From a bacterium HR15 (GTDB lineage Bacteria > Armatimonadota > Fimbriimonadia > Fimbriimonadales > GBS-DC), in the NCBI GenBank assembly GCA_002898555.1, contig BEHR01000010.1, forward strand, positions 1-64,000: a stretch of DNA of 64,000 bases, written 5' to 3'. The position numbers and the translations under genes are program-made. Shown here one piece after another: positions 4,131 to 48,888 of this stretch (position 1 is the stretch's first letter; each line of letters starts with the position of its first letter). The notes under the pieces are model-generated. The model did not search any database. It was not told where the DNA came from and was given only the letters and a program-made list of their open reading frames with translations.

Positions 4131-4492
4131 GACAAGGTGCGCTTGGCAAGTGGGGCGAGCAGGTGGTTGCCGAATGGCTGGAGCGCCAGGGCTTCGTGCT
4201 GCTTGCCCGCAACTGGCGACGGCGCGAGGGTGAACTGGATTTCATCGCGATGCAGGGCGATATCCTCGTGTTTATCGAGGTCAAGACGCGCCGATCGAAA
4301 GCGTTTGGTGCACCAGAGGAGAGCGTCGACGAGCGCAAGCAGTGTCAGCTCACCCGCCTCGCCCAACGCTATCTGGACGAGAACCCCTCGCTTGCCTTCA
4401 ACGAGTGCCGCTTCGATGTCGTGGTGGTTGATCTGACGGGCAATCGTCTGCGCCTACGCCATTACCCCAACGCCTTCCCGCCGACCGGGTAG
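4127..4492 (+). CDS. yraN: YraN family protein (UPF0102, endonuclease-like fold)
   Basis: A 121-aa cytoplasmic protein of the UPF0102 family, which has a restriction-endonuclease-like fold and no settled function. The characteristic order is present: GKWGEQVVAEWLERQGF at the N-terminus, ARNWRRREGELDFIA with the E and D of the PD-(D/E)XK-like core, then VFIEVKTRRS. All three core residues (E/D, E, K) are retained, so catalytic activity is possible. The start codon overlaps the protease stop by 4 nt, which is odd because the two proteins work in different compartments. It may be linked to natural transformation or recombination as in other phyla, but nothing nearby supports this. Confidence 0.88.
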   Translation: MRQGALGKWGEQVVAEWLERQGFVLLARNWRRREGELDFIAMQGDILVFIEVKTRRSKAFGAPEESVDERKQCQLTRLAQRYLDENPSLAFNECRFDVVVVDLTGNRLRLRHYPNAFPPTG

Positions 4493-4507
4493 CTCGTGCT
4501 TTTGAGG

Positions 4508-4513
4508 TACACT
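4508..4513 (+). promoter_or_regulatory. -10 box, leaderless start of ymdB
   Basis: TACACT ends 7 nt before the ATG at 4521 and no ribosome-binding site is present, the arrangement expected of a leaderless mRNA. Confidence 0.5.
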
Positions 4514-4520
4514 CTGCCGT

Positions 4521-5300
4521 ATGCGAATCCTGTTTCTGGGCGATATTGTGGGGCGCCCGGGGCGTCGTGGCGTGGCGTCCATTCTGCCCGAATGGCAGGC
4601 ACGCTATGCACCCGATATCGTGATTGCAAACGGTGAGAACGCGGCGGGAGGCATGGGCATCACCCCCGATATCGCGAACGAGCTGTTCGCGCTGGGCATC
4701 GATGTGATGACGCTGGGCAACCATGTATGGCAAAAAAAGGAGATTTATCCGATGCTGGATGTGGAACCCCGATTGATCCGCCCCGCGAACTATCCGCCAG
4801 GCGTGCCCGGGCGCGGCTGGGGCGTCTTTCCCGTGCTGGACAAGCAGCTCACCATCGTCACACTGGCAGGGCGTGTGTTTATGGAGCATGCCGACTGCCC
4901 CTTTCGCACCTTTGATACGCTGCGCTCCCAGATCGAGACCCCTTTCCTGCTCATCGATTTCCATGCGGAGGCGACCTCGGAGAAGGCAGCGTTCGCGCTC
5001 TATGTGGACGGGCGCGCCAGCGCGGTCATCGGTACGCATACCCATGTGCAGACCGCCGACGAGCGCATTCTGCCCGGCGGCACAGCGTTCATCTCCGATG
5101 TGGGGATGTGCGGACCGCTCCATTCGGTCATCGGGATGGAACCTGAAATTGTGATTCGGCGGTTCCTCACGGGCATGCCCGCCAAGTTCGAGGTAGCGAA
5201 GGGTGCGCCCGTAATATGTGGCGTGCTGCTCGATCTGGATCGCACCAGCGGGCGTGCGCTCGCCATCCAGCGCCTGCAAGCACGCCTGATGACCGATTAG
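4521..5300 (+). CDS. ymdB: YmdB family metallophosphoesterase
   Basis: A 259-aa metallophosphoesterase of the TIGR00282/YmdB family, whose Bacillus member hydrolyses cyclic nucleotides (2',3' or 3',5') and affects multicellular behaviour. Visible metal-ligand motifs are FLGDIVGRPG at the N-terminus, IANGENAAGG near residue 35, TLGNHVWQKKE near 70, IDFHAEATSEK near 145 and VIGTHTHVQTAD near 170, followed by FISDVGMCGP. All ligands (D, E, N, H, H, H) appear intact. Length equals the family norm. It is monocistronic in appearance, with its own -10 box. The biological substrate in this phylum is unknown. Confidence 0.93.
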   Translation: MRILFLGDIVGRPGRRGVASILPEWQARYAPDIVIANGENAAGGMGITPDIANELFALGIDVMTLGNHVWQKKEIYPMLDVEPRLIRPANYPPGVPGRGWGVFPVLDKQLTIVTLAGRVFMEHADCPFRTFDTLRSQIETPFLLIDFHAEATSEKAAFALYVDGRASAVIGTHTHVQTADERILPGGTAFISDVGMCGPLHSVIGMEPEIVIRRFLTGMPAKFEVAKGAPVICGVLLDLDRTSGRALAIQRLQARLMTD

Positions 5301-5340
5301 AACAACCTTATTGTACCCGATTGCGGCAAACTTTTCGACA

Positions 5341-5447
5341 GGGTATACTTCACCGTACCATGCTACCAGAAGAGAGCATTCCGACGGCTGAAGAGCGAGT
5401 CAGTTTTGAGCGGGAGCGTGGGGTCAGTGCCATTGTGGTCTCACCAG
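5341..5447 (+). repeat. Direct repeat, copy 1 (partner 6201-6306)
   Basis: About 107 bp that match 6201-6306, with 49 bp exact at the 3' end. The two copies flank the VapBC-type pair. Confidence 0.85.
5344..5349 (+). promoter_or_regulatory. -10 box in the duplicated gene start
   Basis: TATACT with TTGCGG at 5321-5326 (17-bp spacer) as a possible -35. It corresponds to the TATACT at 6204-6209 in the second copy. Confidence 0.45.
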
Positions 5448-5515
5448 CGCCAGCAAGATCCAATGGTGGAACATTAACGAACACCAGTGATATGGGGTAT
5501 ACTTTCGCTCGGTGA
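5360..5515 (+). pseudogene. Truncated duplicate of the ACT-domain gene start
   Basis: The stretch 5341-5447 repeats 6201-6306, including the -10 box, the start codon and the first 29 codons of the ACT-domain gene. The first part has diverged (MLPEESIPTAEERVSFE against MLPEEVAPVAEERVSFE), whereas 49 bp (5399-5447 and 6258-6306) are identical. After codon 29 the copies part: the frame here runs on for only 22 unrelated codons to a stop at 5515. The remnant ends within the start of the antitoxin gene. It may still be transcribed, but no intact ACT domain can be made from it. Confidence 0.75.
5498..5503 (+). promoter_or_regulatory. -10 box of the toxin-antitoxin operon
   Basis: TATACT lies 8 nt upstream of the GTG at 5512 and 17 nt upstream of the ATG at 5521. 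No ribosome-binding site is seen, which favours the GTG as a leaderless start. Confidence 0.45.
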
Positions 5516-5769
5516 TACCGATGGAGATAAAGACGCGCGCACGCTACATGAATCGTGTTCTCATCCCAGCAGAGCCGCTGAATCTACCTGAAGGGGCAGA
5601 AGTAGGGATATCTATCTGGTTTTCTGAGCCTGCTTCTGCTGAAGCAACCCTGGTCGATAAAGATGGCGTACTGGTGGTACGCTCGCATATTCCCATCGAT
5701 GTGGACCAGATGCTGGAAGCGTTGCGCAGTGAGCGGTGGACTGTTATCCGGGGATATGAGGAGAAATGA
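5512..5769 (+). CDS. VapB-type antitoxin, AF2212/DUF104 family
   Basis: An 85-aa antitoxin. The N-terminal half (MEIKTRARYMNRVLIPAEPL, then NLPEGAEVGISIWF) is the DUF104/AF2212-like beta-barrel DNA-binding motif typical of VapB partners of PIN toxins. The C-terminal half, ending PIDVDQMLEALRSERW, should be the toxin-neutralising tail. Either GTG 5512 or ATG 5521 may be the start; GTG is 8 nt from a -10 box, while ATG matches the usual family N-terminus better. The stop overlaps the toxin start by 4 nt, giving a coupled antitoxin-toxin operon that is expected to be autoregulated. It sits between two copies of the start of the ACT-domain gene, so it appears to be a recent arrival. Confidence 0.85.
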   Translation: MIPMEIKTRARYMNRVLIPAEPLNLPEGAEVGISIWFSEPASAEATLVDKDGVLVVRSHIPIDVDQMLEALRSERWTVIRGYEEK

Positions 5770-6194
5770 AGGTTCTGCTTGATACCTCGGTACTTGTATC
5801 AGCGTTAATCGAATCACATCCTCACCATGAATGGTGTCTTCATTGGCTCCAGCGAGTGCATCGCCGCGAAGTCATAGGGATAGTTAGCACACACTCACTG
5901 TTAGAGCTTTATGCGGTGTTGACGCGCCTACCTGTGCATCCCCCTATTGTCCCTGCAGTAGCATTGCAACTGATAGAACATAACTTGTATAGCAAAGTGG
6001 AGTTTGTTAGGCTATCTATAGATGATTACATGAATCTTATAAAATTACTTGTTGAGCGGGAGATAAGAGGAGGGCGTGTTTATGATGCGCTAATCGCTGC
6101 TGCTGGTCAGCAAGCGCAGGTGGAAGCGGTCATTACGCTGAATCCAAGTCACTTTGAACAGTTAATCCGGGGTGTCCCCGTGCTTTCCCCATAG
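5766..6194 (+). CDS. VapC-type PIN-domain ribonuclease toxin
   Basis: A 142-aa PIN-domain protein. The N-terminal acidic residue is in KVLLDTSVLVSALI, a second acidic position lies in THSLLELYAVLTRLP (E near residue 48), and the third in YDALIAAA (D near 107). The last conserved strand reads VITLNPSHF, where many PIN toxins have T-x-N/D-x-x-D-F; the closing acid is replaced by S/H here, so activity should be tested and not assumed. Such toxins cut RNA, often initiator tRNA or rRNA. The base composition is less GC-rich than neighbouring genes, particularly at 5940-6060, supporting transfer. The start overlaps the antitoxin by 4 nt. Confidence 0.87.
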   Translation: MKVLLDTSVLVSALIESHPHHEWCLHWLQRVHRREVIGIVSTHSLLELYAVLTRLPVHPPIVPAVALQLIEHNLYSKVEFVRLSIDDYMNLIKLLVEREIRGGRVYDALIAAAGQQAQVEAVITLNPSHFEQLIRGVPVLSP

Positions 6195-6200
6195 ATTGGG

Positions 6201-6306
6201 GGGTATACTCTCCTTACTATGCTGCCGGAAGAGGTCGCGCCGGTTGCTGAGGAGCGGGTCAGTTTTGAGCGGGAGCGTGGGGTCAGTGCCATTGTGGTCT
6301 CACCAG
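6201..6306 (+). repeat. Direct repeat, copy 2 (partner 5341-5447)
   Basis: Intact copy carrying the promoter and first codons of the ACT-domain gene. Confidence 0.85.
6204..6209 (+). promoter_or_regulatory. -10 box of the ACT protein-aspartokinase operon
   Basis: TATACT 9 nt upstream of the ATG at 6219, with no ribosome-binding site between them. Confidence 0.5.
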
Positions 6307-6761
6307 AAGTGGCTTACCTATTCGTACGTGTGCCCCACCCTGTCGAAGTGCCCCTCCAGCGACTCGCCATTCTGGGCACGCTGCAGGAAGCGGGTATCAG
6401 CATCTTTCTCATCAAGCTTCAGCGGCTGGGGCTCAGCTTCGGCGTGCAAGCAACCGACATGGAGCGCACCCGCGCTGTGCTGGAACGCGCCGGGTTTCAG
6501 GTGACGGTCAAGCCGCATCGCGTGATGGTCTCAGTGTTCGCGCAGAATATGCGTGAACTGCACGGCGTGCTGGCACGCATCGCCGAGATCATGTACGAAT
6601 CGGGCACCGCCATCGAGCAGATTAGCGACGCGCATGACCGAGTCACCTGTTTAATTGAAGCGAGCAAGGCACCGCAGGTTGTCGCACGGCTGCGTCGTGC
6701 CTTCCGCCTGCGTGAACGCGCCATACGCTGGCAGGCACAACAGCCTACCACAGCGAGGTGA
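6219..6761 (+). CDS. Free-standing tandem ACT-domain protein (aspartokinase-regulator type)
   Basis: A 180-aa cytoplasmic protein made of two ACT-like units resembling the C-terminal regulatory part of aspartokinase and nothing of the kinase. Unit one spans about 30-95 (QRLAILGTLQEAGISIFLI); unit two about 97-165, with VMVSVFAQNMRELHGVLARI and the strand VTCLIEASKAPQVVARLRRAF, which parallels the aspartokinase consensus around ISCLV. The gene ends 3 nt before lysC, so the two are almost certainly cotranscribed. I infer a role as a lysine/threonine sensor or accessory beta-type subunit for the adjacent kinase, although that enzyme has its own ACT region. The upstream region is duplicated on the other side of the toxin-antitoxin pair. 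Confidence 0.8.
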   Translation: MLPEEVAPVAEERVSFERERGVSAIVVSPEVAYLFVRVPHPVEVPLQRLAILGTLQEAGISIFLIKLQRLGLSFGVQATDMERTRAVLERAGFQVTVKPHRVMVSVFAQNMRELHGVLARIAEIMYESGTAIEQISDAHDRVTCLIEASKAPQVVARLRRAFRLRERAIRWQAQQPTTAR

Positions 6762-6764
6762 ACA

Positions 6765-8171
6765 ATGCGTATCCGCGTGTTAAAGTTCGGCGGCACCAGC
6801 ATCGACACCCATGAACATCGCTTGATGGCAGCCCGCAAGGTTATCCAATGCCTTGAAATGGGCTGTAAGCCAGTGGTGGTCGTTTCGGCGATCGGGCGGC
6901 GGGGTGAGCCGTATGCAACCGACACCCTCGTGGAGTTCCTGACCCAAATCGATCCGAGCGTACCCCCGCACCCCCGCGAAAAAGACCTAATGATGGCATG
7001 CGGCGAGATTATCTCCACCGTGATTATGGCGCAGACACTGCGCATCCTCGGCTATCCCTCAGTCGCGCTCACAGGCAGTCAGGCAGGCATCATCACCGAT
7101 TCGGAGTTTGGCAACGCCCGTATTCTGGAGATTAACCCCACACCCATCCTGCGCTGCTTAGAGTATGGCTGGATTCCGGTAGTGGCAGGCTTTCAAGGCG
7201 TCACGCGCCCAGACAAAATATTTCCGCGAGGCGCGATGACCACGCTGGGACGCGGTGGCAGCGACACCACAGCCGCCGCATTGGGCGCGGCATTACAAGC
7301 CGAAGCGGTGGAAATTTACACCGATGTGGACGGCGTGAAAACCGCCGATCCCGACTTCGTGCCCAACGCACCCACCCTGCGCGAGATTACCTACGAGGAA
7401 GTGGCGGAAATCGCGCATCAGGGAGCGCGCGTGCTGCACCCCCGCGCCGCCGAAATCGCGATGGACTACGGCATCCCCCTCTGGGTCAAATGTACCTTCA
7501 CCGATGAGCCAGGCACGCGCGTGGTCGCCCAGCTCAAAAACAACGGGCGACGCATCACGGGCGTCACCCACACAGGCAAGCTGGTCTACCTGAGTTTCCA
7601 TATCCCCTACCCAGAGCATAAGTCGCTACTGGAGCTGGAAATCTATCGGTTGATGGCGCGAATCGGGGTGAACCTGCAGGGTGTCGGCGTGGACGAGGAG
7701 GGGTTAGGCATCGCCTTCTCGCGCGAACATTGGCAGACCGTGCGCTCCGCGTTGGATGGGCTGGTCGTGCCACTGCAAACATCAGATCTGCCCGCAGAGC
7801 AGTCTAATGGTGTCGCCCCAGCAGCTCCCCTACCCCTCTTCTACCTGTTCCAGTTCGGTGATCAGCCCAGCGAGGTGTGCCAGATTCAGCGCGGCATGCT
7901 CGAAAAGGCGGGGCTGGGCAGTGAGCGGCTGCGCCCTATTGTTATCAATGTCGCGGAGGGCTGCACTATGGTCTCGCTGATTGCCCACGGCTATAGTCAG
8001 GAGCCCGGCGTGTTCGCCAAGCTCTATCAAACGCTGCTACAAGCAGGTATCCCCGTGTGGCAAACGGCAGACTCGGAGCTGAGCCTGTCATGTATCATCC
8101 CCGAAAGCGAAGTAGAGAAGGCGGTGAGGATACTCCATGAACGATTCGAACTCCACGCAGCAACCGGATAA
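6765..8171 (+). CDS. lysC: Aspartate kinase
   Basis: A 468-aa aspartokinase that phosphorylates aspartate as the first step to lysine, threonine, methionine and diaminopimelate. The kinase domain begins with RVLKFGGTSI, continues with PVVAGFQGVT near residue 140, TLGRGGSDTTAAALGAAL near 160-178 and YTDVDGVKTADP near 185, which are the substrate and ATP-binding signatures. The C-terminal 170 residues form tandem ACT units (from about 300), separated by a proline/alanine-rich stretch (about 345-355). The start is 3 nt downstream of the ACT protein. Its 3' end overlaps the atpZ start by 35 nt, an unusually long overlap. Feedback specificity cannot be read from sequence. Confidence 0.95.
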   Translation: MRIRVLKFGGTSIDTHEHRLMAARKVIQCLEMGCKPVVVVSAIGRRGEPYATDTLVEFLTQIDPSVPPHPREKDLMMACGEIISTVIMAQTLRILGYPSVALTGSQAGIITDSEFGNARILEINPTPILRCLEYGWIPVVAGFQGVTRPDKIFPRGAMTTLGRGGSDTTAAALGAALQAEAVEIYTDVDGVKTADPDFVPNAPTLREITYEEVAEIAHQGARVLHPRAAEIAMDYGIPLWVKCTFTDEPGTRVVAQLKNNGRRITGVTHTGKLVYLSFHIPYPEHKSLLELEIYRLMARIGVNLQGVGVDEEGLGIAFSREHWQTVRSALDGLVVPLQTSDLPAEQSNGVAPAAPLPLFYLFQFGDQPSEVCQIQRGMLEKAGLGSERLRPIVINVAEGCTMVSLIAHGYSQEPGVFAKLYQTLLQAGIPVWQTADSELSLSCIIPESEVEKAVRILHERFELHAATG

Positions 8172-8562
8172 AACGCCCCTGGAGGGCGAGGCTCCTGCCG
8201 AGCCGAAATCCTTGGAGGGCGAGGCTCCCGCCGAGCCAGAGCCTTATCCTATGCCGGAGCTACCCCCCCTCCCTGAAATACCGCCACCACCCGAGGGGCG
8301 ATTCGAACGACCGCATCGGAAGCCGTCACGCTCACCACGCTTCATTGAAGCGTCGCGTGGGATGGCGATTGCCTTCTCGGTCGGCTTCGCGCTCACAGGT
8401 CCCGTCATCTTGGGCGCACTGCTGGGCGTATGGCTCGATAATACCTTCAAGACCTCACCGTGGCTGACCCTGATCCTGCTGCTAATAGGCATCGTGACAG
8501 GGTTCACGCAGATGATTCGCCTGCTGAACCGTCTTCAGAACGAGCAGGAGCGCAAGCCGTGA
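8137..8562 (+). CDS. atpZ: AtpZ/AtpI family protein with LEGEAPAEP repeats
   Basis: A 141-aa membrane protein of the AtpZ (DUF AtpZ/AtpI) group, small accessory proteins of F-type ATP synthase implicated in magnesium uptake or c-ring assembly. Residues 85-130 contain two hydrophobic helices (AIAFSVGFALTGPVILGALL and SPWLTLILLLIGIVTGF) with the G-x-x-x-G spacing of the family. The N-terminal 80 residues are disordered and Pro/Glu-rich, and hold two copies of LEGEAPAEP encoded by the dispersed repeat (8180-8205 and 8213-8237). GAGGA at 8125-8130 supports the ATG at 8137, which lies inside the end of lysC. The repeat must be tolerated because it falls in the soluble tail. Confidence 0.8.
   Translation: MNDSNSTQQPDKTPLEGEAPAEPKSLEGEAPAEPEPYPMPELPPLPEIPPPPEGRFERPHRKPSRSPRFIEASRGMAIAFSVGFALTGPVILGALLGVWLDNTFKTSPWLTLILLLIGIVTGFTQMIRLLNRLQNEQERKP
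8180..8237 (+). repeat. Two in-frame copies of the GGAGGGCGAGGCTCC dispersed repeat
   Basis: Units at 8180-8205 and 8213-8237 begin TGGAGGGCGAGGCTCC and end GCCGAGCC. They are read as LEGEAPAEP in AtpZ. The same unit recurs at 27804, 27834, 27908 (reverse), 36458, 42294-42379 (reverse, three copies) and 43680. Confidence 0.9.
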
Positions 8563-34992: not shown

Positions 34993-35028
34993 CCCCACCT
35001 TGCCCACTTTTTCCTGCCTGCTTGAAGG

Positions 35029-35034
35029 TACAAT
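35029..35034 (+). promoter_or_regulatory. -10 box of der
   Basis: TACAAT, preceded by AAGG, 10 nt before ATG 35045, no ribosome-binding site. Confidence 0.5.
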
Positions 35035-48858: not shown

Positions 48859-48888
48859 GGTCGTCTCCACCGGGAGAATTGTACCTCC

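Follow-up and report, generated by a model that had tools for sequence, protein, structure and literature searches.

A putative VapBC-type pair enclosed by two copies of an ACT gene start upstream of lysC

How does a toxin-antitoxin operon come to lie between two copies of the beginning of one and the same gene? The question is raised by a locus in the window, by which we mean the whole stretch of 64,000 nucleotides, from a Fimbriimonadales bacterium, that was analysed; the genes of this locus (4521-8559) run in the order ymdB, antitoxin, PIN toxin, ACT, lysC and atpZ. A ymdB-type metallophosphoesterase gene (4521..5300, + strand, as are all features described below; PF13277, E=3.4e-107; TIGR00282) forms the upstream neighbour. 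On the other side of the operon lie an intact ACT-domain gene (6219..6761; PF22468/PF13840), the product of which matches positions ~250-405 of aspartate kinase models and resembles the regulatory C-terminal half of aspartokinases, and lysC, which encodes aspartate kinase (6765..8171; PF00696, E=1.2e-46; TIGR00657 above cut-off).

The duplicated gene start

Repeat finding places a 98-nt direct repeat on either side of the operon (5350-5447 and 6209-6306; 85% identical, ungapped, start spacing 859), and blastn within the locus gives 107 columns when the preceding promoter box is included (5341-5447 / 6201-6306; E=2.5e-29). Each unit comprises a -10 box, a leader and the first 29 codons of the ACT-domain, aspartokinase-regulator-like gene; the upstream unit (copy 1, 5350..5447) is truncated at that point, and the downstream unit (copy 2, 6209..6306) opens the intact gene. 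This is the longest and strongest short-range direct repeat in the window, the other two being a dockerin-type internal repeat and a 45-mer at 71% identity, and a third copy is absent from the whole 3.04-Mb genome. Beyond the window, on contig 10 of the same assembly (G000, ~76.7-81 kb; L081:14728-18956), several direct repeats of 70-208 bp and 75-90% identity were also seen, which are possibly internal to a large protein gene.

Alignment of the two copies reveals a mosaic. They differ at 12 of 88 coding nucleotides, all of them within nucleotides 6-39 of the frame, and after the 39th coding nucleotide follows a 49-nt run that is identical between them (5399..5447, matching 6258-6306). Under random placement of the differences, a terminal identical run of this length would be expected with P ~2e-5, and a run that long anywhere with P 2e-4. 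The coding differences amount to S6V, I7A and T9V plus four silent codons; 5' alleles standing ~30% apart adjoin 49 bp that agree at every silent site. Over the same 16 codons of the 3' part, the window and its relatives differ at 5-8 silent codons, as against none between the copies, indicating that the 3' parts must share a very recent source. Plain duplication followed by drift leaves the perfect tract unexplained, so recombination or conversion is needed. The original prediction of an ACT start of about 107 bp on both sides of a toxin-antitoxin operon, with an identical 3' 49 bp and a 5' part diverged to the point of amino-acid changes, is thus borne out by repeat search, blastn and alignment; its ascription of the perfect tract to gene conversion or selection stands in so far as drift alone fails.

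The same prediction had called copy 1 decayed, a description that we reject. Copy 1 contains neither stop nor frameshift and is overall no further from the relatives than copy 2; it forms the first part of an open 51-codon frame (5360..5515), in which the 29 ACT codons are followed by 22 foreign ones. The TGA of this frame (5513-5515) overlaps GTG 5512, the earliest GTG of the antitoxin reading frame, an arrangement that may couple translation of the two. Both copies share the box and an MLPEE start, and their leaders agree in length within 1 nt. Counted over the 39 nt that open the frame, the homologues in genomes G011, G001 and G004 show 10, 10 and 13 differences from copy 1 and 13, 14 and 9 from copy 2, respectively. 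When leader and coding start are taken together, G011 agrees with copy 1 at 11 of 15 informative sites and with copy 2 at 4 (sign test P=0.12), and G004 agrees with copy 1 at 3 and with copy 2 at 8 (P=0.23); such sites are few, and the sign tests are not significant alone (P 0.12-0.77). Copy 1 leans to G011 and G001, and copy 2 to G004, and by this comparison neither looks decayed; the two look like alleles.

Inspection of the region upstream of each start qualifies a further claim, that the duplication had rebuilt the promoter. The -10 box is indeed present twice: GGGTATACT precedes copy 1 (5341..5349, with TTGCGG 17 bp upstream of TATACT) and the intact ACT gene (6201..6209, 7 bp past the toxin stop). 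No -35 element is duplicated, however, and the box occurs genome-wide (107 occurrences, against 4 for a reversed control), including in the toxin-antitoxin promoter (TTAACG-18-TATACT, 5474..5503, with GGGTATACT at 5495). GGGTATACT is a general promoter element of this genome, and the 9 nt at the head of the repeat therefore weigh little as evidence for duplication; an equivalent box precedes nearly all ACT starts of the family. Similarity between the copies begins at the -10 box, with none upstream, and there is no recognisable -35 before copy 2, where the 3' end of the toxin gene occupies that position. Since the relatives, judged by eye, also have no consistent -35, an argument from this element is weak.

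At both copies the box ends 9-10 nt before the ATG, a distance suggesting that genes of this ACT family are transcribed from a general promoter box with almost no leader. A search for known RNA regulators (4400-8400) returned none. A separate motif, ATTGTACCY, occurs four times in the window (5310-5318, 1058-1066, 35026-35034 and 48878-48886) against 0.32 expected, and in several genomes of genus g4 TTGTACC also stands ~10-20 bp upstream of the ACT box.

The toxin-antitoxin pair and its relatives

Between the two gene starts lies an intact antitoxin/PIN operon, a putative VapBC-type pair by its domain matches. The antitoxin gene (5512..5769) encodes an AF2212-like protein (PF01954, E=2.6e-6, above cut-off) that is 54% identical to its homologue in G008; its start is GTG 5512 or, by comparison with that homologue, ATG 5521. 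It overlaps the toxin gene by ATGA (5766-5769). The PIN-domain toxin (5766..6194; PF01850, E=1.5e-13; 62% to the G008 homologue) retains D6, E47, D107 and N126, as read from the sequence, which we take to be the acidic active site of the PIN family and which the G008 protein likewise retains. The toxin scores below the cut-off of the NCBIfam Mtu_PIN model (41.3 versus 73.6 bits), and a sequence search of the PDB gave no relatives at E 0.01.

Several observations bear on where the pair came from. With a GC content of 0.47-0.52, it is poorer in GC than the ymdB, ACT and lysC genes on either side (~0.60-0.62), and homologues of the toxin are patchily distributed, being present in 30 of 291 genomes of the phylum. 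The closest pair, that of G008 (62% identical), sits at a different site, behind a trpA-like gene and without flanking duplication; further relatives are found on plasmids of Chroococcidiopsis, hot-spring Allomeiothermus, Microcystis and Deinococcus, and none on viral contigs. Because of its low GC, patchy spread, different site in the closest relative and plasmid relatives, the pair looks horizontally acquired, in agreement with its earlier reading as an acquired insertion. The companion claim, that ACT and lysC retained an intact start after their displacement, is likewise supported. No transposase, integrase or insertion sequence was found among the genes of the locus (4521-8559).

A self-comparison of PIN loci detected flanking repeats at two others among 28, against none of 33 control loci, with a distance cut that narrowly excluded the window itself. 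One is a PIN pair with a 31-bp flanking direct repeat (94%), the right copy of which lies 28 bp past the toxin stop (L088:981-1994); at the other (L098:979-2853, in G136), a small gene is present in two 169-bp copies (88% identical) on either side of the pair and a second gene, a repeat that probably belongs to a paralogous gene array. These two loci are of another kind and too small in number for a claim of enrichment, and the small survey does not establish flanking duplication as a habit of the toxin family.

The ACT gene itself is widespread, with a match in 57 of 61 genomes searched, and the second start is confined to the window genome; none of the 61 has both ACT starts without the pair. 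Two ACT pieces in G011 represent one broken gene rather than two starts. In G001, G004, G005 and G002 lysC follows ACT directly; in genus g4 the ACT gene is located elsewhere. In none of the relatives compared does ymdB stand beside ACT, so no empty ymdB-ACT site was found among them. A scan of genome contigs added three further relatives at 51-86% identity, and in those viewed in detail the pair is absent from beside ACT.

Examination of the G011 locus (L048:9982-10475, KatS3mg016) shows an ACT copy that is frameshifted, contains stops and is 81-86% identical to that of the window; the ACT genes of other members of its genus stand at 61-68%, and ymdB of G011 at ~70%. The gene was apparently transferred laterally into G011, away from that genome's own lysC. 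Being broken and apparently transferred, the G011 copy is an imperfect reference, even if none of the relatives that share this gene start is closer. In G005 (L038:6727-9487), a frame that by eye resembles dapF directly precedes ACT and lysC, a neighbourhood suggesting that the ACT gene belongs to a lysine-pathway setting.

A possible route of insertion

The locus looks like a genuine insertion scar. For its formation we propose that the pair inserted at the ACT start by a recombination that duplicated ~100 bp of target, by way of homology-facilitated illegitimate recombination, a reading to which we give about as much credence as doubt; as the simplest single event, it is probably the most economical route. 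We infer the structure of the donor, the single event and the order of its steps as follows. On the incoming DNA, the pair would have been linked to a diverged ACT start. A crossover within the ACT start would have taken place past codon 13, and at its other end the incoming DNA would have been joined, without homology, behind resident codon 29. The resident 5' part would then remain in front as the truncated copy 1, which continues into an unrelated spacer without a second copy in its own genome (5448..5494, up to the toxin-antitoxin promoter; GC 0.49 for 5448-5520). Copy 2 would be a hybrid of donor leader and codons 1-13 followed by resident sequence; its pattern is compatible with a hybrid allele, the parental form of which was not found among the relatives compared. 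On this route the 49 bp would be identical because they are resident DNA in both copies, and the identical tract would run from crossover to join, matching the pattern seen. The donor arrangement, with the pair directly before an ACT gene, occurs in none of the relatives examined.

The same pattern would result from an older duplication in which the 49 bp were converted later. If both starts derive from the resident gene by simple target duplication, with subsequent divergence at the 5' end and conversion homogenising the rest, then the length of the repeat would accord with the target duplications in the literature, which are of order 100 bp, and the common box, MLPEE start and nearly equal leaders would follow. 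Such a history requires two processes, however, and in a useless copy old enough to have diverged by 30% one would expect stops, frameshifts or an increased distance from the relatives, none of which is seen; we consider it possible, at distinctly lower probability than the single recombination. The order of events might also be reversed, the pair having already stood before ACT, with copy 2 native, when ymdB and a diverged ACT start were joined upstream. Copy 2 is the copy attached to the full gene, and as ymdB adjoins ACT in no relative, that junction is itself new in the lineage; yet the pair lies upstream of ACT in no relative compared, and a fragment ending at codon 29 is unlikely to have joined beside its own homologue by chance without homology, which leaves this order doubtful.

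A different kind of account takes the structure for an assembly artefact or strain mixture, in which an assembler linked two alleles through the identical 49 bp. The genome is a draft of 72 contigs, and 49 bp is near or under common assembly word sizes; against this, the contig could have been built only if a truncated ACT start next to foreign spacer is present somewhere, and contig 10 runs on for 81 kb. We regard an artefact as the least probable of these explanations, and a poor bet. On the preferred route, by recombination at a shared gene start, ACT and lysC would now depend on the retained -10 box, on read-through from the pair, or on both; the lack of any detectable intrinsic terminator between toxin and ACT makes read-through possible.

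Known parallels and what the locus may mean

Gene mobility of this kind has been described before, and the locus adds one more case. For restriction-modification systems, insertion accompanied by target duplications of order 100 bp is on record (PMC3874152, PMC3031569), and the passages of these two papers on insertion with long target duplication cite Nobusato 2000 and Furuta 2010. As there, a selfish two-gene unit without a transposase of its own is flanked by direct repeats of ~100 bp, here of presumed target origin; unlike there, the two genes form a PIN toxin-antitoxin module, and its repeats are mosaic, diverged at the 5' end and identical at the 3' end, rather than two uniform copies. 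Homology-facilitated illegitimate recombination has been reported in E. coli conjugation (PMC3240628) and proposed for Vibrio cholerae T6SS effector-immunity arrays, where displaced remnants lie beside new toxin-immunity modules (PMC5361080). The route proposed here shares with that process one homologous anchor, one non-homologous join and a resident remnant beside the new module, although in the T6SS case the remnant is an immunity gene and here it is a gene start. The pair itself resembles VapBC type II modules in its PIN toxin, small upstream antitoxin gene overlapping by ATGA, own promoter and patchy horizontal distribution, and differs from them in having an AF2212-like antitoxin (PF01954) and a toxin below the Mtu_PIN cut-off.

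In a broader and frankly speculative extension, for which we hold out little hope, small toxin-antitoxin pairs of this phylum would need no recombinase to spread and would be carried along by short gene starts homologous to those of the host, each insertion leaving a hybrid promoter-proximal host start and a short leader frame, the stop of which overlaps the antitoxin start, thereby coupling the pair to a biosynthetic operon. With one case alone, and no empty site among the relatives compared, the weight of the observation is modest. If the proposed route is right, the locus would capture a transposase-free toxin-antitoxin pair in the act of entering a housekeeping operon without destroying it, and the mosaic of a diverged and an identical half would provide a testable signature by which simple target duplication could be told apart from the transfer of a foreign gene start. 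Insertion of a type described chiefly for restriction-modification systems would thereby extend to toxin-antitoxin pairs in a little-studied phylum.
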